Part shown: positions 39,758 through 51,142 of the stretch, one piece after another | How the letters are laid out: each line of letters starts with the position of its first letter | Numbering within the stretch: the stretch's first letter is position 1 | Assembly (NCBI GenBank): GCA_014058405.1 | Contig: CP047423.1 | Coordinates: 3,208,501 to 3,272,500, forward strand | Source: Candidatus Nitrospira kreftii | Lineage (GTDB): Bacteria; Nitrospirota; Nitrospiria; Nitrospirales; Nitrospiraceae | Length of the DNA: 64,000 bases | Direction: 5' to 3' | Made by a program: the position numbers and the translations under genes | The notes under the pieces: model-generated | Seen by the model: the letters and a program-made list of their open reading frames with translations, nothing else | What the model was told of the DNA's origin: nothing | The model's database searches: none

Positions 39758-40864
39758 TTACCCAGTTAGTTCACTGTCCAGCTGATGGGCCTTGCGCCCG
39801 CCCCGAGCAAGCGGGTGCTCAGGAACTTGCCCCTCAACCATAAGTCTTGCCATATCCGCGGCGCGGGTGACGAGTTCTTGCGCCCCTTCCCGCAGCTCTC
39901 GGCTGTTCTGAACTTCGAGGACGTTCCGTTCCATGTCCTCGGCGCTCCACCCTCGTGAATGAGCGATGAACGGAAACTGCGGGAACTGGCAGCCAACTTC
40001 GGCAAAAAACGTCATGAGCTGGCCTGCCACCCCCTGCACATTGTCTTGCCCACCCATAATAATAAACGCCGCGACCTTGTTCTTGAGCAAGTGTCTATTT
40101 GCGATGGTCTCCTGATTCTGGATGCAGTTCATCCGCTCAATCATCTTGTAATAGAGGCTGCTGGCGTTGCCCCAACGAATAGGGGTGGCAATCAGGATCA
40201 CATCGGCCCAATGCACGATCGCTTCATACACGCGATCAAGTTGATCCGTCGGGTCCATTTGCGTGATCGAACAGGGCCATGTACAGGCCTTCGCCGATTT
40301 GGAGTAATAGCCCTCACAGGGACGAAAGGCCAGTTCCCGCAACTTGATGTACTGGGTCTCAAGTTGTAGCTCGTGCCGCGCATGATCTAAAGCCGCTTCG
40401 AGCAATGCATCCGATCCGCTGAAACGCGGATGTTCAAGCGTCATCGCCGTGGTCGAGATCCCCACAACCCGGATCGGTCCAGCTTGGCGGAGCACTAGAC
40501 GACCAAGAGGGTGAGGCTTGTGAGCCTGCTTCCTGCGTTTCGTGGCAGAGGAAAGATCGACATAGACCCTGCCATCCTCCACTTTTGTCGAGTAGACCGG
40601 AACCTGATCTTGCTCATACCCAGATTCCCCATGACCGGTTCGATGATGGAACTTCCAGTAGTGCCAGGGACAGACAACATAATCGCCATCCAGCGTGCCT
40701 TCACCTAACGGACCACCAACGTGATTGCAGAATCCGGATATCGCGGTAAATGCGCCATCCTTGTACGTCAGGGCGATAGTTGTTTTTCCGAAAGAGATTG
40801 TCTGCAGCGGCTTCCGCTTCAGTTCTTCAACGCTTCCAACATCGGTCCATTCGGCATCCGGCAT
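39758..40864 (-). CDS. Rieske domain fused to flavodoxin-like reductase
   Basis: A 368-residue two-part protein. Residues 1-105 form a Rieske domain with C46, H48, C65 and H68 (CNH and CPWH), spaced as in naphthalene dioxygenase-type ferredoxins. Residues about 130-345 form a NADPH-dependent FMN reductase/iron-sulfur flavoprotein-like fold, with GISTTAM as phosphate loop and a CEGYYSKSAKACTWPC cluster motif. Electrons could thus pass from a flavin to a 2Fe-2S centre in one chain. First gene of the three-gene operon, AAGGAGCAC ribosome binding site. Substrate or partner is unknown. Confidence 0.88.
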   Translation of the reverse strand: MPDAEWTDVGSVEELKRKPLQTISFGKTTIALTYKDGAFTAISGFCNHVGGPLGEGTLDGDYVVCPWHYWKFHHRTGHGESGYEQDQVPVYSTKVEDGRVYVDLSSATKRRKQAHKPHPLGRLVLRQAGPIRVVGISTTAMTLEHPRFSGSDALLEAALDHARHELQLETQYIKLRELAFRPCEGYYSKSAKACTWPCSITQMDPTDQLDRVYEAIVHWADVILIATPIRWGNASSLYYKMIERMNCIQNQETIANRHLLKNKVAAFIIMGGQDNVQGVAGQLMTFFAEVGCQFPQFPFIAHSRGWSAEDMERNVLEVQNSRELREGAQELVTRAADMARLMVEGQVPEHPLARGGRKAHQLDSELTG

Positions 40865-41058: not shown

Positions 41059-44000
41059 TCACATACCGAGCTGCTCAAGAATGTTCCGAGCCTCAATCAA
41101 GTCGGGAGTGGCAACCCGCTTCTGAAACTGGGAGCAGACGGGATGCAGGACCCGTTTCGCGGCATCCGGCCGGTGCAGTGTTCTCAAGAGTCTGGCCATA
41201 CTTACCGCGACTCGAAGTTCAAGCATGTTTGCATGCTGATCCTGTGCGACCTTCAGGGCTTCAACAAAACACTGCTCGGCAACGGAGACGGATGGCTCGG
41301 ACTGTTCCAGCAACAGTTCCCCTTTCAGCCGAAGTAGTTCCGCCTGCCAACAGCGTTCTCCCTGAGAGCATACAAGTTTCAGCGCCTCTGAAAGTACGCT
41401 CAAACCTTCATCAATACGTTTCTGGCGCAAATAGAGTTCTGCGAGCAGCGACAATGTAAACGTGTTATTGAGACTTGCACCAGCGGCTCGGGTAGCGGAG
41501 AGGCCCTTTACGAACCTGTCGAGTCCTTGCTCTTCCCCCTTTTCAGCCAGAGCCCAGCCTTGCAGAGACGTCGCCCAAGCTAAAGGCACTTCAAATGAAT
41601 ATTTTGTCGACAACTCTATGGCTTCTTCGGTGAGATGTAATGTCTTCTCTGCTTCTCGCAGTGTGGAATAGGTCCAGGCCACAGTCGTCAAGGTGAACGC
41701 CAGTGTGAAGGGGTGTTCCAACTCTCTTGCCATACCGATGGCCTCCCTCGATAGGACTTCGACTTGATCGACCTCGCCCAATATCCATAGCGCTCTTGCC
41801 AGCATAATTCTCGCGGTGATGCCAGGATCCTGAGTATAGGGTAGCGCCTGTGAGCGATGCCGAGCAGGATCATATAGAGACTTTGCCGCAAGCAAATGGG
41901 TTTTGGCTTCATTGAACCGGCCAAGAAAGAAATAGGTGGAGCCGACACTCTCGTGCGCGCGAATCAGCATATCCGGGTTGTGTTCACGATTCGCCTGAGA
42001 CAAGAGATGTTCAGCCAGGTCGCAGGCTGTTGCAAGAGGTCCCCTGACAAGACGGAAGACCCATAACCCCCAATGAGCGAGAAAGTGATGCTCAGAGTCG
42101 CGGTTCTTCTGAGAGAGTTCCTTTGCCCTGAGATAATTTCGCTCGATCTCCTCGGAAGCATATCCTTTCACCGTCACCATGGGGGCTCCGCGCGCGATGA
42201 GGAGCTCCAACTCCAATGCATCACGTTCCGTATCTGAGGGTAACTCCTTCAGCAAAGCCAATGCGTGATCGAAATGGTTCAGCGCTTCGACATTGGCTGA
42301 CCGATCCGCGTCTCTTCGAGCTGCAAGTCGCCAATACGTGATGGCCGGACGGGTCAAGCCTGCCTGTTCAAAGTGGTAGGCCAGGAGTTCCGGTTCCAAC
42401 CGCACACGCTCGGGGAACTTCTCTTCCAGTGATTGAGCAATGCGGGCATGGAGGAGCCGGCGAGATTTCTTGGGGAGCGTATTGTAGGCCGCTTCTTGGA
42501 CGAGCATATGTTTAAAGCGATAGCGCGCAAACAATCGTTCCCCCTCCTGCAGAATGAGCCCTGAAGCGACAAACCGATCAAGGGCACTGTGTAGCTGGCT
42601 GTCCGTTATCTCAACGGTGGCCCGCAGGAGTTCATAGGTGAATTCCCGCCCGATTGCCGCTCCGATCTGAACAATTTCCTTGATCGGCCCTAATCGGTCC
42701 ACCCGTTCCATGAGCAACGCTTGGAGACTGTCCGGAATGGCCATGTCCATTAACGGAGCCTTGAGGGTAAAGGCGTCGGCTCCCTCGGTCAGCAATCCGA
42801 TTTCCAGGAGGTTTTTCGTCAACTCTTCGATGTACAGAGGGACACCGTCCGTCTTCGCCAAAATCGCCTCCTGTACTTCTTGGGGAAGCACCTTTCCTCC
42901 CGTCATCGTCGCAATCAGCTCGGCACTCTGCCGGCGCGAAAGCCGACTCAACGTCAGAAATGTGACGTGACTGTATTCCGCCCAGACCGGTCTGAAGTCA
43001 GGGCGAAAGGTGATCAGCATCAAGACACGCATCTGCCTGATCCGATCAATGATTCGCGTCGTGAGGTCCAGCGTGCTGGGATCAAGCCAGTGCGCATCCT
43101 CCACAATCAGCAACACCGGGGAACGATCCGCCAACCTTCGCAGATACTGCACGAGCGCTTCCAGGGTCATGTCCTTGCGTTTATCGGGCGACAGATTCAA
43201 CAGCTGGTCCTGTTCACTCCCTTGAATCGAGAGCAGATCCGCAAGCAGGGCAACCGTGATGCGGTCGGCGGGCCCGTTGTCGGCCATAAGCGTGGCAAGC
43301 TTCTGCCGTTGCGTGGAAGCGCTGTCTCCATCGGTCAGCCCCGCGGCCTGCCGCAGATACGTCATGACCGGATAGAGTACGGTATTGGTATGGTGCGGTG
43401 AGCACTGGGCTTGGATCCTTTCGTAATGGCCGCCCGCCAGTTGGTCACGCAGATGTTGAACCAACCGCGATTTGCCGATGCCGGCCTCACCACACAGAAG
43501 AACGACCTGTCCTTCTCCCTCCACTGCCTCGCGCCAACGACCCAAGACAAGAGCCGCTTCGTGCGTTCTGCCTATGAACTGGAATAATCGGCCGGATCGA
43601 TACGACTCGAACCGGCTGGCTGAGGATGTGGCGCTCACAACCTGCCAGATCTTGACTGGTGTCTCGAACCCCTTGAGAGGGACCGTTCCCCGATCGGTAC
43701 ACTCGAACTCGCCCCCGATCAGACGCTTCGTCACTGAATCAACGATCAATTGATTCGGTGCAGCCAGTCCCTGAAGCCGGGAAGCTAGATTTGGAGTTTC
43801 ACCGAACACCGACCGTTCCTTGGCGACGTCCTGACCGATGAGTTCGCCCACGATGACAGGACCGGTTGCGATCCCGATTCGCACCGCGACTTCAAACTCC
43901 TGATCAGTATAATGCTCACGAGGGAGCGCCCTCACCAACTCCAGCACAGCGAGTCCGGCATGAACCGCGCGCTCCGCGTCGTGCTCATGAGCCTGAGGAT

Positions 44001-44457
44001 ATCCAAAATACACCAAGAGTCCGTCACCCATGTATTTTGCGATATAGCCGTTGAATCGGCTGATCGCTTCACTACAGGCATCGAGAAAATGCCGGATAGA
44101 GGTTTGCAGATCTTCAGGATCCACCCGGCGAGCCAGCGCCGTTGAACCCACAAGGTCACAAAACATGACCGTCAATTGGCGACGCTCCGCTTGATCTCGG
44201 ACGGGAGGGAATGGTGTGGCTTCCAGGTCGGTTGCGATGGGAGCTGGCTGACGACCGTCGCTGTCGGCCTGTAGTGACAGGTCTGCGATGGCACGCAGGA
44301 GCCTCTTCCGATGGCCGAGCACAACACCCAAAGATGCCAAATCGCTGTCGTTCAGTTCTGGCAAGACGTCCCATGTGATGGCGTTCTGCTGAAAGACTTC
44401 TCGATAGTAATCGAGGCCGAGACTGTCCAGCCATGCCGAGACGCGATCATCTATCAT
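41059..44457 (-). CDS. Adenylate cyclase-like/AAA ATPase/TPR protein
   Basis: An 1132-residue multidomain protein. A SAM domain is at about 1-60. A class III cyclase domain (about 92-270) has both metal aspartates, D101 in FCDLVGST and D145 in YMGDGLLVYFG. A large P-loop ATPase of the STAND/AfsR-like type follows (Walker A GEAGIGKS at 323-330, and LIVEDAHWLD), then a helical TPR-like repeat region to the end. Such proteins may sense a signal with the repeats and make cAMP. Monocistronic or final gene of its strand run; the ATG has no obvious ribosome binding site. Confidence 0.9.
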   Translation of the reverse strand: MIDDRVSAWLDSLGLDYYREVFQQNAITWDVLPELNDSDLASLGVVLGHRKRLLRAIADLSLQADSDGRQPAPIATDLEATPFPPVRDQAERRQLTVMFCDLVGSTALARRVDPEDLQTSIRHFLDACSEAISRFNGYIAKYMGDGLLVYFGYPQAHEHDAERAVHAGLAVLELVRALPREHYTDQEFEVAVRIGIATGPVIVGELIGQDVAKERSVFGETPNLASRLQGLAAPNQLIVDSVTKRLIGGEFECTDRGTVPLKGFETPVKIWQVVSATSSASRFESYRSGRLFQFIGRTHEAALVLGRWREAVEGEGQVVLLCGEAGIGKSRLVQHLRDQLAGGHYERIQAQCSPHHTNTVLYPVMTYLRQAAGLTDGDSASTQRQKLATLMADNGPADRITVALLADLLSIQGSEQDQLLNLSPDKRKDMTLEALVQYLRRLADRSPVLLIVEDAHWLDPSTLDLTTRIIDRIRQMRVLMLITFRPDFRPVWAEYSHVTFLTLSRLSRRQSAELIATMTGGKVLPQEVQEAILAKTDGVPLYIEELTKNLLEIGLLTEGADAFTLKAPLMDMAIPDSLQALLMERVDRLGPIKEIVQIGAAIGREFTYELLRATVEITDSQLHSALDRFVASGLILQEGERLFARYRFKHMLVQEAAYNTLPKKSRRLLHARIAQSLEEKFPERVRLEPELLAYHFEQAGLTRPAITYWRLAARRDADRSANVEALNHFDHALALLKELPSDTERDALELELLIARGAPMVTVKGYASEEIERNYLRAKELSQKNRDSEHHFLAHWGLWVFRLVRGPLATACDLAEHLLSQANREHNPDMLIRAHESVGSTYFFLGRFNEAKTHLLAAKSLYDPARHRSQALPYTQDPGITARIMLARALWILGEVDQVEVLSREAIGMARELEHPFTLAFTLTTVAWTYSTLREAEKTLHLTEEAIELSTKYSFEVPLAWATSLQGWALAEKGEEQGLDRFVKGLSATRAAGASLNNTFTLSLLAELYLRQKRIDEGLSVLSEALKLVCSQGERCWQAELLRLKGELLLEQSEPSVSVAEQCFVEALKVAQDQHANMLELRVAVSMARLLRTLHRPDAAKRVLHPVCSQFQKRVATPDLIEARNILEQLGM

Positions 44458-44583
44458 GACGGCTCGAGCCTGGATCGGTGAGCGCTGGACCCGGAATCAT
44501 GGCTGCTTGCAGCCGATGACACCTTGAGCGATAATATCCCCATGATCAACGGTGCTTCCCCAGCGAAGACTAGTCCTCGGAGC

Positions 44584-44694
44584 ATGATCCGACACATCGA
44601 ATACCGACTCATCTCGATTGGAATGTCGGTGATCGCCTACCTACTCGAAAGAGCCGTTCTACGCTCGATCAAACGGGACGCTGCCGGTCTTTAG
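44584..44694 (+). CDS. Small single-helix membrane protein
   Basis: Reads MIRHIEYRLISIGMSVIAYL then LERAVLRSIKRDAAGL, 36 residues. An ATG at 44542 would add 14 residues, but CGGAG ahead of 44584 favours this start. The central stretch is hydrophobic and the ends are charged and basic, so a single membrane helix or amphipathic helix is plausible. It lies in the divergent gap between two large minus-strand genes. Expression is not certain. Confidence 0.4.
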   Translation: MIRHIEYRLISIGMSVIAYLLERAVLRSIKRDAAGL

Positions 44695-44727: not shown

Positions 44728-46827
44728 TCAACGTCCCCGCATCAGATCGAAGACCAATCCAAGAGTCAACAGTCCGGCGACAATCCCGAACGTGACCGAT
44801 ATCCAATCTGCAACTGTTCCCGACATGGCCGTGAGTCCGCTGGAGAGGATACTTGCCGCGGCCGCTGAGCCGAGGGCAAGGCGCCGTCCCGTCCGGCGAA
44901 CCATTTCCTCAAGTGAATTCGCCTGGAAATTCACGACCAGCTTCTGCCCAGGGCGAGCGCCGATCAGATGTTCGATGGCTTCGGTCATCCGCTCGGCTCG
45001 TACTTTGAACTTCTGCAGCTGATAGACAAGCGCTTTGGGATCGAGCGAGGCCCCCATACGCTTGATCATGACACGCATCAAAAACTTGCCGGCGACGTCA
45101 TAGGGGTCAAGTTTCGGATCCAGAGCCGCCGTCGCCAGTTGGACTTGCGCCAACGCCTTGGCGGCGAGCGTCAGCGACGCCGGCATCGGTACGCCGTGTC
45201 GAAACGCGATCGCGCTCATCTCCTGCAGCAGCGGTCCGATCTGCATCTCGGCGAGAGCCGCCTTGCGGTACTTCGCCATCACTTCACCGACTTCGCTTTG
45301 AAACCGTGGAATATCCAGATCATTACGGCCGGCCGAACCCGTCATCATCAGCGTGACATCGCTAAGAAACGCCACATCTTCCTTCCACAGCGCCATCAGC
45401 AACAACATGAGATGTTCCCGTACGTTGGCATCGAGGGTGCCGACCATTCCAAAGTCGAGCAGGTAGATGCGATTTTTCCACCACATGAGATTGCCCGGGT
45501 GAGGATCGGCATGGAAGAAGCCGTCAACCATGATTTGTTTGTAGTAACTTTCCAAGAGCTGGCGGGCGGCTTCGATACGTTCCGAACCTTCCGGCGCCTC
45601 TGCGATCGGGATACCTTGAATCTCCTCCATCACCAATAATCGGGATGTCGATAGTTCCTGATGCACGGAGGGAACCGCCAACCGGTCATAGTCTGCGAGC
45701 ACCGTCCGCATCCGCCCGATATTTTCGATTTCCTGGTGAAAGTCGAGTTCCCGGTGGAGCGACGTGGAGAGGTGTTTGAACACCGCCTCCATATTCACCA
45801 CTTGGTTGAGGGCCTGACGTTGTCCCACCTTCTGGGCGAATATCTCGAGCAGAGCAAGATCCTGTTCGATATCGGCTCGGGCGGTGGGGCGTTGCACTTT
45901 CACGACGACTCGGTCGCCGTGTTCGAGTCTGGCCCGATGGACTTGGGCGATAGTCCCGGCCGCGAGTGGTGTGGGGTCGATCGACTCAAACACATCCTCC
46001 CACGGCACTCCCAACTCCTGTTCAGCGACTCGAACGACTTCACGCTCGGGCATAGGGGGCACGTGACTCTGCAACATCGTGAGTTCTTCGATGTATTCCG
46101 CAGGAAGGAGATCCGGACGGGTCGACAAGACTTGCCCGAGCTTGGAGAAGGTCGGACCCAGTTCCTCCAGCGCCGCGCGTAGGCGCTTAGCCTGCTGGCG
46201 GCGCATGACAACGTCCGATTGATCGGGCTGACTAAAGAGCTCTTTGAGGCCATGCTTCGCCATGACCGTCGCGATATGCATGGCTCGTCCCGCCAGGTGA
46301 GGCTCAGACGTGTGGGGTTCGCCCAGAGGTTGAACCACGCGCACCGATCGAGCGACCTGCTCACCGGCAGAGGGCAGCGTATTCACAATAATGACGGTGC
46401 AATGGGAGTTGTGGCTGATGCGATTCGGAACGTTACCGAGTAAGAACTCCTTTCGTCCGGCCATGCCCGAATTCCCGACGACCAGGACATCTATGGCTTC
46501 GCGCTCAGCGGCGCGGACGATTGTCAATGCCGGATCGGGATCAATCGCGACGAGGGCATGCCCTCGCTCTCCGGCCAGCTGCCTCACGACCTGTGCAAGC
46601 TCCTCATTCGCGGCAGCAGCCCGTGTCTGCTCAGCTCCACCGAATTCCGTGGTGGTCGGGTGGTGCGGCACAATCACCTGCACAACAAACAGCTCTGCCC
46701 CGTAGCGGGCGGCGAATTCGGCGGCCCATCGGACGGCGTGGTCTGCGGTCTTGGAACGGTCCGTGCCCACCATCACACGACCTATGGCGCTGTATCTGGG
46801 AGAATCGTCCATTTCGCCCTCGCTCAT
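44728..46827 (-). CDS. UspA-UbiB kinase-like fusion
   Basis: A 699-residue protein. Residues about 15-150 form a UspA domain with the nucleotide signature GNSGMAGRKEFLLGNVPN. Residues about 215-560 form an ABC1/UbiB kinase-like domain with the KLGQ motif (229-232), VVVKVQRP, FHADPHPGNL and LLDFGMVG. The C-terminus carries two hydrophobic helices (ASILSSGLTAMSG, IVAGLLTLGLVF), as in UbiB. UbiB-like proteins serve quinone biosynthesis or lipid transport; the fused stress domain could tie it to ATP level. The start has two candidates, ATG at 46827 and 46812. Confidence 0.92.
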   Translation of the reverse strand: MSEGEMDDSPRYSAIGRVMVGTDRSKTADHAVRWAAEFAARYGAELFVVQVIVPHHPTTTEFGGAEQTRAAAANEELAQVVRQLAGERGHALVAIDPDPALTIVRAAEREAIDVLVVGNSGMAGRKEFLLGNVPNRISHNSHCTVIIVNTLPSAGEQVARSVRVVQPLGEPHTSEPHLAGRAMHIATVMAKHGLKELFSQPDQSDVVMRRQQAKRLRAALEELGPTFSKLGQVLSTRPDLLPAEYIEELTMLQSHVPPMPEREVVRVAEQELGVPWEDVFESIDPTPLAAGTIAQVHRARLEHGDRVVVKVQRPTARADIEQDLALLEIFAQKVGQRQALNQVVNMEAVFKHLSTSLHRELDFHQEIENIGRMRTVLADYDRLAVPSVHQELSTSRLLVMEEIQGIPIAEAPEGSERIEAARQLLESYYKQIMVDGFFHADPHPGNLMWWKNRIYLLDFGMVGTLDANVREHLMLLLMALWKEDVAFLSDVTLMMTGSAGRNDLDIPRFQSEVGEVMAKYRKAALAEMQIGPLLQEMSAIAFRHGVPMPASLTLAAKALAQVQLATAALDPKLDPYDVAGKFLMRVMIKRMGASLDPKALVYQLQKFKVRAERMTEAIEHLIGARPGQKLVVNFQANSLEEMVRRTGRRLALGSAAAASILSSGLTAMSGTVADWISVTFGIVAGLLTLGLVFDLMRGR

Positions 46828-46883: not shown

Positions 46884-47147
46884 TTATTGAGCTGCCTGCT
46901 TCAGCTCGTCGATCAGCAGGTCGGCAACCGGCCGGCCCGAAGCCGGATTCTGTCCGCTGATGACAGGGCTATCCACGATGGCAAAGCGCCCACGCCTTGG
47001 CGGCTTTCTTGTAGATCGCCTATAGGGATCAATCGGGGTATAGCCTCCACAAGGGCTCACGTAGTCGACCTGATACCCTGCCGCTTCGACTTTCTTGACG
47101 AAGTGGACGGCCTCTCCAAGCCACAACCCCCTCGGCCGAACCGTCAC
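46884..47147 (-). pseudogene. Deleted DJ-1/PfpI family remnant
   Basis: Reads GLWLGEAVHFVKKVEAAGYQ and VDYVSPCGGYTPIDPYR, the N-terminal part of a DJ-1/PfpI (Hsp31-like) domain, then jumps to FAIVDSPVISGQNPASGRPV, its C-terminal end. About 115 residues, including the nucleophile-elbow cysteine, are missing in between. A GTG at 47147 overlaps the DUF5069 stop as GTGA, so the 87-residue piece may still be translated, but it cannot be an active DJ-1 enzyme. Confidence 0.78.
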
Positions 47148-47605
47148 AGCCGTTTCTCCTCCAGATCGTAGACATCGAACCAGACGTAGACGGGACGATG
47201 GTTCGGGACGAACTTGGGAACATATTCTTCGAGGTACTGCTGAGCCTGGAGACTCATATCGCTCAATCGTGTATCGCGCATCACATTGTTCCATTTCAAT
47301 ACTTCGTCTGGATCCTTGACCTTGGAATGCCCACCGATCCACGTCGCGAGTTCTTCATCGGTCGCTCCCGTCGCAACCATATCCTTAAATTGTTCGGGCG
47401 TGATACCAGTGAACGAGAACCATTGACCGGCCAGCGAGCAAGGCCAGTAATTGTACTCGCCATTTATGTCCAGCAAGAACGCGCGACACTTATCTACACA
47501 GCGAGCTGCAATGACAAAGCCTCCCAGCTTCTCGCGTGGGCTACGGGGATAGCCCGTTCGGAGATCCTTCGCAAACGTCTTTACCTTTTCGTGGTTTGCT
47601 TTCAT
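47144..47605 (-). CDS. DUF5069 domain protein
   Basis: A 153-residue protein of the DUF5069 family. LRTGYPRSPREKLGGFVIAAR is the typical start and YNYWPCSLAGQWFSFTGITPEQF and DEELATWI the middle. Cytoplasmic, of unknown function. It overlaps the deleted DJ-1 remnant start by 4 bases and follows a SnoaL-like gene, within a run of redox and stress enzymes; the conserved Cys in RCVDKCRAF and WPC may matter, but I cannot say how. Confidence 0.85.
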   Translation of the reverse strand: MKANHEKVKTFAKDLRTGYPRSPREKLGGFVIAARCVDKCRAFLLDINGEYNYWPCSLAGQWFSFTGITPEQFKDMVATGATDEELATWIGGHSKVKDPDEVLKWNNVMRDTRLSDMSLQAQQYLEEYVPKFVPNHRPVYVWFDVYDLEEKRL

Positions 47606-47680: not shown

Positions 47681-48049
47681 TTACTTTTTGCTGGCGTCAT
47701 AGTAGAACCGCTCATGGATGATCTTGTCCTTGTTCCATTTCGACACCACCACCTGTTCCATATGGACCGCCTGCCCGTTCGTCGCGATGAAGTCCAGGCT
47801 GCATTCATAGAATGTGACATTGTCACCCACGGCTGAGGCCGTCACATTGAACCCTTTCCACTCTTTCACGCCACTCATGAACTGTTTTTCCCGCTCAATA
47901 TTCGCGGCCTGACCGACGGTCGGAGGGTTGGCATTCTCTTGCATAGCCGCGTCCTTGTCATAAAACTCGGTCATCGCTTCAATAATTTTCCCCTGACGGA
48001 TGTAGCCGAATAAACCGTTCAACCGCTGTTGCAAATTCGTCGTGCTCAT
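47681..48049 (-). CDS. SnoaL/NTF2-like protein
   Basis: A 122-residue alpha+beta cone-shaped protein of the SnoaL/NTF2-like group; EAMTEFYDKDAAMQENANPP and MEQVVVSKWNKDKIIHERFYYD are typical. Such folds bind small hydrophobic ligands, as enzymes or binding proteins; no catalytic residues are evident. ATG at 48049 has GGAG eight bases ahead; ATG at 48055 overlaps the upstream stop. Cotranscribed with the VOC and DsbA-like genes. Confidence 0.85.
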   Translation of the reverse strand: MSTTNLQQRLNGLFGYIRQGKIIEAMTEFYDKDAAMQENANPPTVGQAANIEREKQFMSGVKEWKGFNVTASAVGDNVTFYECSLDFIATNGQAVHMEQVVVSKWNKDKIIHERFYYDASKK

Positions 48050-48051
48050 GA

Positions 48052-48480
48052 TCATTTCTCCTTTTGAGGTTTCCTGGCGAATGTTATTCCGGCCTTCTGC
48101 ACTTCCTGATAGGGGAGCAGCCAGACCAACGATTCATCGCTGAGATCTCCGACTTGGATACGATTCCCCCACGGATCCCGAAAGTCGCAGCGAAAATCCG
48201 GGTGAAGTTTCAACTTATACTTCTGCGTCAGCTTCTTGCGAACTTCTTGAATCTGCTTCGCGTCGCGCACCATCAATCCAAAATGTTTCACTCGGTCCGG
48301 CTGAAGCTGCGCGACCTCAAAGATCGCCATGAATTGATGCGCGCCCAACTTACACCAGGCTGCGCCTTCTCCGCCCCGCAACATCTTCAGGCCAAAGACA
48401 TCGGAATAAAACTTCATGGCCTTCTTGGCATCGGTGACTTCGATCACCACATGATTACAACCATAGACCTGAACGGCCAC
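48052..48480 (-). CDS. VOC-family protein
   Basis: A 142-residue vicinal-oxygen-chelate protein. CNHVVIEVTDAKKAMKFYSDVF is the first unit, FRCDFRDPWGNRIQVGD the second, which resembles glyoxalase/fosfomycin-type members. Candidate metal ligands are the first His and a later Glu/Asp; the set looks incomplete. Start is a GTG overlapping the DsbA-like stop as TAGTG. The second VOC gene in this window (with 38871). Confidence 0.85.
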   Translation of the reverse strand: MAVQVYGCNHVVIEVTDAKKAMKFYSDVFGLKMLRGGEGAAWCKLGAHQFMAIFEVAQLQPDRVKHFGLMVRDAKQIQEVRKKLTQKYKLKLHPDFRCDFRDPWGNRIQVGDLSDESLVWLLPYQEVQKAGITFARKPQKEK

Positions 48481-49154
48481 TACCCACCTACCTTCCCCAC
48501 TGCCGAACCGGCCGCGCTCTCCCTGAGGGCAGCGACAAACTGTTCGGGAGGTTGCGCCCCGGAGAGCACATAGACTCCATTGACGACGAAATAGGGAACA
48601 CCTCGAATGCCCAAACGATGGCCTACGGCTTCCTCTGCCTTCACTTCCCCGACACCTTCATCGCCGGTCAGAAACGTTTCGGTCTCGGTTTGATCGAGCC
48701 CAGCCTGAGCCGCGACGAGAGACAACGTCTCAATACTCCCAATATCTCCACCCTCGACGAAATAGTGGTGAAAGAGCACCTCGACCATCTCTTCTTGCTT
48801 ACCCAGATGCCCTGCCAGCCAGATGAGGCGATGCGCGGCAAATGTGTTGGGCGTGCGGGCAATCCGCTCAAAAACGAACGGGATCTCCTCTTCGACACCT
48901 GCAGCCGCAACGCGGTCGTAGATCGCTCGAGCAGCCTCAGGGCCACCAAACTTCGTTTCAAGGTACTGCCGCCGATCCAACCCGTTCTTTGGCATCGTCG
49001 GATTCAACTGGAACGGCTTCCATACTACACGCGTCTTCACTGTTTCGCCGACTTGCTGTAGTGCCCGTTCAAGCCGCCGCTTGCCCACATAGCACCAGGG
49101 ACAGATGACATCCGAGTAAACATCGATACGGATTGCTGCGCCCTGGCCATTCAT
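48480..49154 (-). CDS. DsbA-family oxidoreductase (FrnE-like)
   Basis: A 224-residue thioredoxin-fold protein of the FrnE/DSBA_oxidoreductase group, with the redox pair C18-P-W-C21 in DVICPWCYVGKRRLERAL and no signal peptide, so it acts in the cytoplasm. Related proteins isomerise disulfides or serve in polyketide pathways and oxidative stress. ATG at 49154 has AAGGGTGA seven bases ahead; the longer frame starts with a GTG at 49163. Confidence 0.9.
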   Translation of the reverse strand: MNGQGAAIRIDVYSDVICPWCYVGKRRLERALQQVGETVKTRVVWKPFQLNPTMPKNGLDRRQYLETKFGGPEAARAIYDRVAAAGVEEEIPFVFERIARTPNTFAAHRLIWLAGHLGKQEEMVEVLFHHYFVEGGDIGSIETLSLVAAQAGLDQTETETFLTGDEGVGEVKAEEAVGHRLGIRGVPYFVVNGVYVLSGAQPPEQFVAALRESAAGSAVGKVGG

Positions 49155-49186
49155 ACGCTTCACCCTTCACACTCCACGAACGACGC

Positions 49187-50068
49187 TTAAAATAGATGTC
49201 CCATCCTTCCGGCCTGATAATCTTCGACCGCCTGAACAAGTTCGGCTTTAGTATTCATGACAAACGGACCATAGCGCGCGATCGGCTGATTGATCGGCTC
49301 TCCGCTCATGATTAAGAGCCGGCTCTCTTCGTGGGCTTCTATGTTGAGTTGAGAGCCTTCACCGTGACACACAGCCAATTCCGCCTCTCCGGCCGTATGA
49401 GTGCTGTTCAGCCTCGTTCGACCTGTTATCACCAACAGGGAAACATTATGGCCCTGAGGGAAAATCAGGGCAGCGCTCTCACTATCTTGCAATTGGAGAT
49501 CGTAGAGCTCGATCGGTGTAACGGTATGGGCCGGCCCCTTACGTCCCTGAAACGATCCTGCAATCACTCGCAACTTTCCTCCGCCGTTCAAATCGATAGC
49601 TGGAATATCGGCATCCAGAATCGTCTGATAGCGTGGCACGGACATTTTCTGAGACTGCGGTAGATTGACCCACAGTTGGACGGCCTGAAAGGTTCCTCCC
49701 TCCTTGGCCCACTGTGTCTCGTGCATCTCTTCATGAACGACGCCGGACGCCGCCGTCATCCACTGGACATCACCAGGCCTAATCACGCCGGCATTACCCG
49801 CCGAATCCCGATGAGCCACGGCACCTTGATACATGATCGTCACCGTTTCAAACCCGCGATGCGGGTGCTCCCCGACCCCTCGCGGTTGATCGGTGCCGGA
49901 AAATTGATGCGGTCCGGCATAGTCCAACATGAGGAACGGATCAACCTGTCGATCGAGATCGTTGCTTGGAAACAAATTGCGAACAGGAAACCCATCGCCG
50001 ACCATATGGGCAGATCCTGGTTGATAGACTCCGAGTACGTCCTTGGTAGCCGTGGTGCTTGTTGTCAT
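49187..50068 (-). CDS. Pirin family protein
   Basis: A 293-residue bicupin. The N-terminal HPHRGFETVTIMYQGAVAHRD contains the metal-binding His set, and HEEMH completes it, as in pirins/quercetin-2,3-dioxygenase-like proteins. It may oxidise a flavonoid-like or quinone compound, or sense iron redox state. It starts 10 bases after the stop of the NmrA-like gene and leads to the DsbA-like gene, inside a redox-stress run. Confidence 0.92.
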   Translation of the reverse strand: MTTSTTATKDVLGVYQPGSAHMVGDGFPVRNLFPSNDLDRQVDPFLMLDYAGPHQFSGTDQPRGVGEHPHRGFETVTIMYQGAVAHRDSAGNAGVIRPGDVQWMTAASGVVHEEMHETQWAKEGGTFQAVQLWVNLPQSQKMSVPRYQTILDADIPAIDLNGGGKLRVIAGSFQGRKGPAHTVTPIELYDLQLQDSESAALIFPQGHNVSLLVITGRTRLNSTHTAGEAELAVCHGEGSQLNIEAHEESRLLIMSGEPINQPIARYGPFVMNTKAELVQAVEDYQAGRMGHLF

Positions 50069-50078
50069 GATCCCCTCC

Positions 50079-50939
50079 TTATTTCACCATCTCCTGTAAC
50101 GCATCCTGAAGCGTCACAGTTCCCCTCACCAGTCTGACCGGTTGTTCATACCTGATCAGGCCTTTTGAGAACGCGGTGTACATTTCTTCAAATAACCTCG
50201 CTGCCTCGTCGGAAAACCCAAATGATTTGAATGTCGGGACAACGGCACTCAGAGGCGCATGCTGAGCCGTGACCGTTTTTCCTAGGATCTGGCCAAGCGC
50301 CGTTGCCACCTGTTCTGGACTGTACTCTTCAGGACCCGCCATTTCCACGATCTGCTTGCCCCGCCCACCGGCGATCAAATGCTCGGCCGCAATCCTGCCG
50401 ATATCCTTGGTCGAAATCATCGGAATCTTCGCCTGAGGCGCAATGAACGTGGGCAGAACTCCCTCCGCCTTCACCGCACCGACCACCGGCGTCCAATTCT
50501 CCATGAAGTAGGGTGAACGAAGAATCGTGAGATGCCGGACCGAGGCTCGCAGTTTCCCTTCACCATAATGCACGGCTCGAATGGGCCCCGTGCCATCGGG
50601 CAACTGGCCGCCGATGGAGGAGAGAAACGCCACATGACCAGCCCCGCTTTTCTGAACAGCCTCGGCGGCTCGATCGAGCCGAACCTGCTGATCTGATAGC
50701 CATGCTGTTGCAGCGTAGTTCGGTGGGATCATGAGATAGATGCCCGTTGCTCCTTCAAATGCCTTGGCTAGAGCCGACACATCATCAAGCGAGGCAACGA
50801 CGACCTCTGCACCCTTTGCTTCCCAAGTAGATCCCTTCTCAGTGGAACGAACCACGATCCTCACCGGTTGTTTCTTACCCAGTAACGTCTTTACGACCGC
50901 AGATCCCGTATTCCCCGTCGCACCAACAACGACAAACAT
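50079..50939 (-). CDS. NmrA-like NAD(P)-binding protein
   Basis: A 286-residue atypical SDR. The MFVVVGATGNTGSAVVKTLL start binds a dinucleotide, and AEGVLPTFIAPQAKIPMIST is typical of the NmrA/QOR2-like group that reduces quinones or senses NADP. ATG at 50939 has GGGAGG ahead. It opens the eight-gene minus-strand redox run. The lack of a clear Tyr-Lys pair leaves enzymatic activity open. Confidence 0.88.
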   Translation of the reverse strand: MFVVVGATGNTGSAVVKTLLGKKQPVRIVVRSTEKGSTWEAKGAEVVVASLDDVSALAKAFEGATGIYLMIPPNYAATAWLSDQQVRLDRAAEAVQKSGAGHVAFLSSIGGQLPDGTGPIRAVHYGEGKLRASVRHLTILRSPYFMENWTPVVGAVKAEGVLPTFIAPQAKIPMISTKDIGRIAAEHLIAGGRGKQIVEMAGPEEYSPEQVATALGQILGKTVTAQHAPLSAVVPTFKSFGFSDEAARLFEEMYTAFSKGLIRYEQPVRLVRGTVTLQDALQEMVK

Positions 50940-51142
50940 GAGTGGCCTCCCTTTCTTGCCGGTCCTTTTAAACCAGCAAGACAACAGACAGTTCAACTAC
51001 CGTCACCGAATCTTACACTGGCAACTTGTATTCCAGGCAATCCCACCCAACTAGAGCACCGGATCCTGCCGGAACGATGGAGATTTTTGAGTTTGACCCA
51101 GTGGTTCACCAGAGGGAAGTGTGGTCTCTCCTGTCGAACGAA

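Follow-up and report, generated by a model that had tools for sequence, protein, structure and literature searches.

The window analysed here comprises 64,000 nucleotides of the Candidatus Nitrospira kreftii genome (contig CP047423.1, positions 3,208,501 to 3,272,500 of the forward strand), and all coordinates below are positions within this stretch unless stated otherwise. This report concerns a gene on the minus strand (44728-46827) that encodes, in a single open frame of 699 amino acids, the fusion of a universal stress protein (Usp) domain with a region of the UbiB family. The Usp domain (residues 16-148; 46384-46782, minus strand) was identified by PF00582 (E = 4e-26; 92.6 bits, above the Pfam cut-off of 24) and by matches to Usp folds. 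The UbiB region (residues 204-593; 45049-46218, minus strand) includes an ABC1 domain (PF03109, residues 252-485; E = 2e-64, and 217.7 bits where 22.9 is the cut-off) and has a fold match in COQ8A. TIGR01982, the UbiB model, is the top NCBIfam match, yet its 325.7 bits stay below the equivalog cut-off of 487.55; likewise, the UbiB equivalog NF003404 scores 262.9 bits and falls short of its cut-off of 667. Translation may start at Met6 (46812), as the equivalent Met opens many homologues.

The motifs listed in a preliminary description of this DNA are placed as it had stated: the nucleotide motif GNSGMAGRKEFLLGN spans residues 118-132, KLGQ residues 229-232 (46132-46143, minus strand) and the catalytic loop FHADPHPGN residues 438-446 (45490-45516, minus strand), the last assigned from sequence and conservation. 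The UbiB site residues are kept among homologues with a linked Usp domain: K229, G231 and Q232 of the KxGQ motif, E360 and D362 of ExD, the catalytic Lys K310, and E366 occur in 82/82 sequences; H439, D441 and N446 of HxD..N and the DFG-type Asp D458 occur in all 79 that were readable at these positions (3 unread). The C-terminal membrane pair proposed earlier holds in part. Two long helices (637-667 and 674-698; 44734-44919, minus strand) are predicted by the structural model, but the second, strongly hydrophobic helix alone passes a 19-residue mean hydropathy of 1.5. By sequence, the nearest solved relatives of the UbiB half are mycobacterial ABC1 proteins and COQ8A/COQ8B, and those of the Usp half are TeaD, Rv1636 and other Usps. 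The solved mycobacterial proteins MSMEG_1954 and Rv3197 (the latter also called MABP-1) share the bacterial ABC1 fold, though their chains match the ABC1 part only. An AlphaFold model of the fusion protein built with 32 homologues reached a mean predicted local distance difference test score (pLDDT) of 72 and a predicted template modelling score (pTM) of 0.55; its UbiB half superimposes on COQ8A (7udp) with Z 28.0 and a root-mean-square deviation of 4.6 over 359 residues.

The two-domain architecture noted earlier is borne out by this 699-residue frame, which combines Usp and ABC1 domains and is conserved across phyla; the same arrangement was found in Nitrospira, in the isolate Nitrosomonas nitrosa Nm90 and in other phyla. 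The locus is part of a complete 4.1-Mb genome, and the window protein and 25 further Nitrospira sequences (76-90% identity) carry the fusion in one frame, in the same order and with no internal stop. At E 1e-20 or better, the fusion protein has matches in 33 of 98 relatives, including 31 of 59 Nitrospira genomes (fragments only in G008 and G035, two pieces in G010); the two matches outside the genus (G079, G094) are UbiBs without Usp, and 28 Nitrospira genomes gave no match at this threshold. One Nitrospira genome, G038, holds two Usp-UbiB copies, on C16 and C4.

Wider searches were evaluated at E 1e-90 or better, with counts that include the centre genomes already known to match. They returned 30/346 genomes in the phylum of an Actinobacteria metagenome-assembled genome (MAG), 13/125 Nitrosomonadaceae (11 full length, G541 in two pieces, G494 truncated), 4/201 in the phylum of a Dormibacteraeota MAG, and 1/199 in the phylum to which a Bryobacteraceae MAG belongs. 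This last match is the centre itself, cut by a contig end. Further full-length copies occur in N. nitrosa Nm90, the Burkholderiales MAG H5_AOB4 and a Methylocystis MAG; a copy with 78% identity lies on a contig labelled Pyrinomonadaceae (L040), which may be misbinned. One scan of viral contigs with the fusion protein found no relative, and none of 155 plasmid records with a match reached 80% coverage. A truncated copy, consisting of Usp and the start of UbiB, is present on the conjugative Nitrosomonas sp. sh817 plasmid NZ_CP133084.1. Its neighbours there (plasmid locus L136, 20019-20753 and 18493-19836 in its own numbering) are another cyclase-domain gene, a recombinase gene and transposases. 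That two genes were joined by a sequencing or assembly error, for which we counted nothing in favour, was rejected: since the same one-frame arrangement recurs in dozens of assemblies, one isolate among them, it is neither a chance product nor an assembly join, and we give this explanation practically no weight.

In a tree of the UbiB part (98 rows), 46 family rows fall on one side of a branch with a Shimodaira-Hasegawa-like approximate likelihood ratio (SH-aLRT) support of 100. These rows comprise 42 labelled fused, 3 split and one at a contig edge where Usp is not visible (L164); the tree holds a thinned selection of the close Nitrospira sequences and omits every other one of the outgroup rows that the pattern scan had given. 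On this tree the Usp-linked UbiBs are one clade. Four Actinobacteria genomes encode the Usp and UbiB halves as adjacent separate frames in the order of the fusion. The frames overlap by ATGA in L053/L163 and by GTGA in L054 (Actinobacteria MAGs), meet at TGATG in L166, and are separated in L161 by an in-frame linker stop followed by Met; L166 and L161 both come from the survey of 346 genomes. The deepest branch of the clade, L165, is fused and split forms lie near the base; the fused state requires 4 changes on the tree, with L161 still labelled fused despite the stop between its halves. The Dormibacterota copy L052/L185, with an in-frame stop within the UbiB part at the position of residue 244, and L056, with a frameshift, look like errors or decay and were excluded from the split count.

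Three features go beyond the preliminary description, namely the glycine of the A-rich loop (residues 289-292, AAGT), a small convergent gene and a linked cyclase. The loop A289-A290-G291-T292 (45952-45963, minus strand) aligns G291 without gaps to Ala339 of COQ8A, the chain of which reads AAAS at residues 337-340 if, as we assume, the offset between chain and residue numbers is 254. Both Ala339 and Lys358 of COQ8A are named in PMC4718504. From 158 submitted loci (fragment locus L035 left out), 155 were readable, and identical sequences were then removed. Glycine occupies the position equivalent to COQ8A-339 in 83/83 distinct Usp-linked sequences, that is 82 with a linked Usp plus L032, which had first been grouped with the others as its Usp part is broken off. 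Their loops read AAGT, AAGS or ACGT and not the canonical alanine type (AAAS, ASAS and the like). The contig-edge row L164, which lies inside the clade, also reads AAGT. All other UbiBs in the same survey have alanine (59/59, with Gly in 0/59), as do MSMEG_1954 and Rv3197 by alignment. Because this sample came from a pattern search with the family under study, we complemented it by a second, family-based one, in which 20 of 30 further genomes supplied 26 ABC1 loci; 25 of these loci were readable, 24 with Ala and one with Gly. This exception, L231, is very divergent, has ELGR in place of KxGQ and aligns unreliably. Pooling both samples gives Ala in 83/84 readable UbiBs without a Usp link.

The equivalent substitution has been made in characterised relatives. 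In COQ8A, A339G reverses the preference for ADP and enables autophosphorylation with Mg-ATP, and in vivo the function of Coq8 depends on the kinase-inhibiting regions (PMC4718504). In yeast Coq8, A197G lowers coenzyme Q6 while enhancing ATPase activity and cis-autophosphorylation (PMC7263595), and A339G has served as a hyperactive control (PMC7877690).

Convergent to the fusion gene, with its stop 33 bases from the end of that gene, lies a small gene (44542-44694, plus strand) for a 50-residue protein with a predicted membrane or amphipathic helix. A profile search recovered this gene at 79 of 87 usable loci, each time downstream of the fusion gene and on the other strand, giving 66 distinct frames; some of these loci represent one genome fetched twice, the split locus L166 is outside the set, and the profile was used in place of a regular expression that caught 9/87. 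Over 176 aligned pairs, substitutions at codon positions 1/2/3 number 1034/667/2064, while 1465 codon differences are synonymous and 1504 non-synonymous, a pattern that identifies the frame as coding. Glu36 is invariant in 15 rows, and Glu20 and Ala32 are kept at 90% or more. No Pfam match was obtained for the window copy and four homologues; two of the five were also compared with NCBIfam, again without a match. The gene occurs in 17 of 34 Nitrospira genomes searched, each time about 110 bases or less from the fusion gene: 17/18 with a fusion match carry it, the exception (G008) having an N-terminal fragment of the fusion only, and 0/16 without a fusion match. Two weak extra matches were seen in G007 and G059.

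The next gene downstream (41059-44457, minus strand) encodes a protein of 1132 amino acids in which a domain search recognises SAM, class III nucleotide cyclase, AAA_16 and TPR domains. Of the loci examined, 18 of 26 from Nitrospira and all 11 from Nitrosomonadaceae, the latter drawn from the 13 matching genomes, have a relative with >50% identity downstream of the fusion and on its strand. The gap to the fusion is mostly 230-340 bases (563 in L191, 1429 in L044). Three loci (L120, L125, L135) hold two tandem copies of a SAM-cyclase gene of 1131-1134 residues, the first about 230-300 bases from the fusion, although the neighbour survey had picked the second. The catalytic columns, aligned to CyaB, are kept in 29/29 proteins (D-K-D-S-N-R in 28, D-K-D-T-N-R in 1), and the window protein shows the complete class III set (D101, K141, D145, S216, N223, R227). 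We take these columns to be the two metal-binding Asp, the substrate-binding Lys and Ser/Thr or Asp, and the transition-state Asn and Arg. The body of cyclase, AAA and TPR is shared with TOMM kinase/cyclase fusions (TIGR03903) and CyaB-type class III cyclases; unlike the former, the neighbour has an N-terminal SAM domain in place of the kinase and scores 573 bits, under the equivalog cut-off of 705.75. At the Nitrosomonas loci the remaining flanking genes vary, and near L187 and L191 lies a gene similar to the annotated recombinase of the plasmid locus, which is consistent with horizontal movement. Cyclase-domain genes of other types near some copies (e.g. L045, L136) mean little alone because the family is common.

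The nucleotide motif of the Usp half (G118-2x-G121-9x-G131-N132; 46432-46476, minus strand) proved near-canonical: the glycines of G-2X-G-9X-G(S/T) are present, but Asn replaces the last Ser/Thr in 81/82 Usp-linked sequences. G118 and G121 are kept in 82/82 of these sequences, G131 in 75/82 and Asp23 in 81/82 (one unread); in a cross-phylum set of 32, Asp23, Gly118 and Gly121 are invariant. Partly degenerate Usp motifs can still bind ATP (PMC3673472). The glycines of Rv1636 that contact cyclic AMP (cAMP) are G10 and G113 (PMC11107214). The window protein has G21 and G118 at the equivalents of Gly10 and Gly113/114; G21 is invariant in 26 Nitrospira sequences and under 90% in the cross-phylum set. 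These glycines are compatible with cAMP binding without being diagnostic. The Usp half of the model matches MSMEG_3811-cAMP (5ahw), TeaD (3hgm) and Lactobacillus plantarum UspA (3s3t) equally well (Z 16.2, about 120-135 residues). Rv1636, MSMEG_3811, TeaD and MJ0577 share the Usp fold and the glycine positions with this half; unlike it, they stand alone, and the motif of Rv1636 has GS where the fusion has GN. The Usp domain of KdpD, a c-di-AMP sensor, is likewise the nucleotide input of a membrane-bound enzyme (7ji4; PMC4686210), but its output domain differs and its fold match is weaker (Z 13.6).

As regards quinones, the handling suggested in the preliminary description is weakened in the sense of biosynthesis. 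With PF03109 (E 1e-5) we searched 31 Nitrospira genomes, 13 with the fusion and 18 of the 28 without. The 13 gave ABC1 matches at about E 1e-62 to 1e-65 (two in G038; an extra marginal one in G016), and the fusion is their only clear ABC1 protein. Among the 18 others, 17 had no match at this threshold, including the single-contig genomes G022 and G053, and G027 had a marginal one (E 4e-6); the control set for this absence search was detected in 10/14 genomes. Since these fusion-less genomes lack a clear ABC1 protein, the fusion is probably no housekeeping quinone gene there. In addition, the Nitrosomonadaceae G099, G100 and G101 each encode, besides the fusion, one or more UbiB-type proteins that have no Usp. 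UbiD was found in none of 15 Nitrospira genomes with or without the fusion (control detected in 9/14); being absent from both groups, it is uninformative and assigns no pathway. N. inopinata and N. moscoviensis contain methyl-plastoquinones (mPQ) as their only quinones (PMC12324825), and MpqB belongs to an mPQ set aligned together with UbiA-E (PMC13386864). The protein could still act on the quinone pool or on other membrane lipids.

At a probability of roughly 0.45, our preferred reading is that the protein would be a nucleotide-gated, ATP-using UbiB-family module at the membrane with a built-in Usp sensor and with no part in quinone biosynthesis. We base this view, drawn from sequence comparison, on the glycine in 83/83 sequences, the pairing of Usp with UbiB, the single clade, the small gene that tracks the fusion and the cyclase in nitrifiers; on the invariance of the other UbiB active-site residues, the published effects of A339G and A197G and the (tied) fold match to MSMEG_3811-cAMP; and on the lack of a clear ABC1 protein in the 18 searched fusion-less Nitrospira genomes. 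With UbiB, COQ8A (ADCK3) and Coq8 of the ABC1 family the fusion protein shares the fold, KxGQ, ExD and the catalytic Lys/Asp/Asn/Asp; it differs from them in the Gly at the Ala339 position, the N-terminal Usp, scores below the UbiB equivalog cut-offs and its dispensability within Nitrospira. In the mechanism that we envisage, the Usp half would bind an adenine nucleotide (ATP or AMP, though in nitrifiers it may be cAMP made by the adjacent cyclase) and would gate the UbiB half. Owing to the loop glycine, the latter may bind and spend ATP more readily than a canonical UbiB, by hydrolysis or cis-phosphorylation, and the 50-residue helix protein may act, either as a partner or as a brake, where the C-terminal helices sit in the membrane. 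As output we would expect a stress-conditional action at the membrane, such as phosphorylation or the mobilisation of quinones or of another isoprenoid lipid. The coupling of UbiB to a nucleotide or stress input that had been suggested earlier gains only indirect support from the conservation of both putative nucleotide sites, from split loci that keep the pair, and from the nitrifier cyclase.

Several observations weigh against this reading. The contacts between the domains cannot be read from a model of only moderate confidence, and the effect of the glycine might be offset elsewhere in the active site. The Usp half departs in its final Asn from the motif of the ATP-binding Usp subgroup, and Usp domains may bind ATP/AMP, cAMP or nothing. 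The profile did not find the small gene at 8/87 loci (L147, L201, L056, L051, L053, L163, L054, L165). No close cyclase lies beside the fusion at 8/26 Nitrospira and 20/20 other loci, although some of these other loci stop shortly downstream of the fusion, and two Nitrosomonadaceae loci, L044 and L191, have a broken cyclase frame; the cyclase is therefore no general supplier of ligand.

For the cyclase, there is a serious alternative, which we rate somewhat short of even: it may be a travelling companion that moved on the same DNA without functional relation to the fusion. The restriction of the pair to Nitrospira and Nitrosomonadaceae, whose fusion proteins cluster, fits this explanation, as do the gap of about 230-340 bp, which holds an opposite-strand gene, and the missing or broken cyclases just listed; the constant order and strand at 29 loci despite differing flanks, together with intact catalytic columns in 29/29, speak for a closer tie. 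That the Usp half merely dimerises or tethers the protein, without sensing, seems improbable to us. Usps often dimerise (PMC3673472), G131 is lost in 7/82 sequences and Ser/Thr has become Asn in 81/82, but the invariance of Asp23, Gly118 and Gly121 across phyla exceeds the needs of a scaffold, and in four genomes stand-alone Usp genes keep beside UbiB.

For the UbiB half, a true protein kinase, which by virtue of the glycine loop would phosphorylate the Usp domain fused to it or the 50-residue helix protein, is an unlikely though not negligible alternative. The glycine is fixed in the clade, the phosphotransfer residues are conserved, and A339G confers cis-autophosphorylation on COQ8A (PMC4718504, PMC7263595). 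However, KxGQ and ExD, which in COQ8A are folded into the active site and occlude its substrate pocket (PMC4718504), are conserved as well, and according to PMC7263595 trans kinase activity has been shown for no UbiB, Coq8 or COQ8A. We consider it less probable still that the protein is an ordinary UbiB orthologue, an accessory of quinone biosynthesis with an incidental Usp. Such a role would agree with the ABC1 fold and full catalytic set, with TIGR01982 as the best NCBIfam match, with its standing as sole clear ABC1 protein in the 13 searched Nitrospira genomes that have it, and with the mPQ inventory of the genus (PMC12324825; MpqB in PMC13386864). It is at odds with the missed equivalog cut-offs, with 17/18 searched fusion-less genomes without an ABC1 match and one marginal, with the other UbiB-type proteins of G099, G100 and G101, with the lower coenzyme Q (CoQ) caused by A339G-type loops in COQ8, and with the scanned surroundings, as no quinone gene is among the five window neighbours scanned.

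The surroundings of the locus include further genes, all on the minus strand. At 39758-40864, an open reading frame of 368 amino acids combines a Rieske [2Fe-2S] domain (5-91) with an NADPH-dependent FMN reductase domain (151-295). A short and seemingly broken frame (46884-47342) lies immediately upstream of the fusion gene, with an end that resembles, by eye, a DJ-1/PfpI-type fragment, and 47144-47605 encodes a DUF5069 protein (E = 2e-42). Farther upstream, a same-strand run at 47681-50996 has a DsbA-like protein, a pirin and, by eye, glyoxalase-like and NmrA-like proteins; it is perhaps an electrophile or redox stress cluster.

The architecture itself has been known since 2005, when a survey of kinase architectures mentioned in one sentence a Nitrosomonas europaea ABC1 protein with an N-terminal Usp (PMC1262709), the same two domains as here. 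That sentence does not go into the loop, the distribution of the fusion, its division into two genes, the small protein or the cyclase. Our literature search, from which most subscription journals and all preprints were out of scope, found no mention of a glycine in this loop, of the small protein or of a link to the cyclase. New to us are the clade with the glycine loop, its members with separate genes, the small candidate partner, the association with the cyclase and the lack of a clear ABC1 match in the searched Nitrospira genomes without the fusion. A bolder version of our reading, which we hold to be doubtful, would see here a naturally "unlocked" UbiB: gated by a cyclic or adenine nucleotide, capable of real phosphotransfer or high ATPase activity, equipped with a dedicated small protein (and a cyclase in nitrifiers), and moving horizontally as a stress-signalling module apart from quinone biosynthesis.

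The use that UbiB/COQ8 proteins make of ATP has long been in question. The clade described here carries as its natural, fixed state a glycine that is always tied to Usp in the sequences read, and the equivalent change in the human protein frees ATP use and lowers CoQ. It may thus serve as a natural test case for catalysis and its control in this family, and with two named candidate partners, the 50-residue protein and the cyclase, it would provide a lead to stress signalling in nitrifying bacteria.

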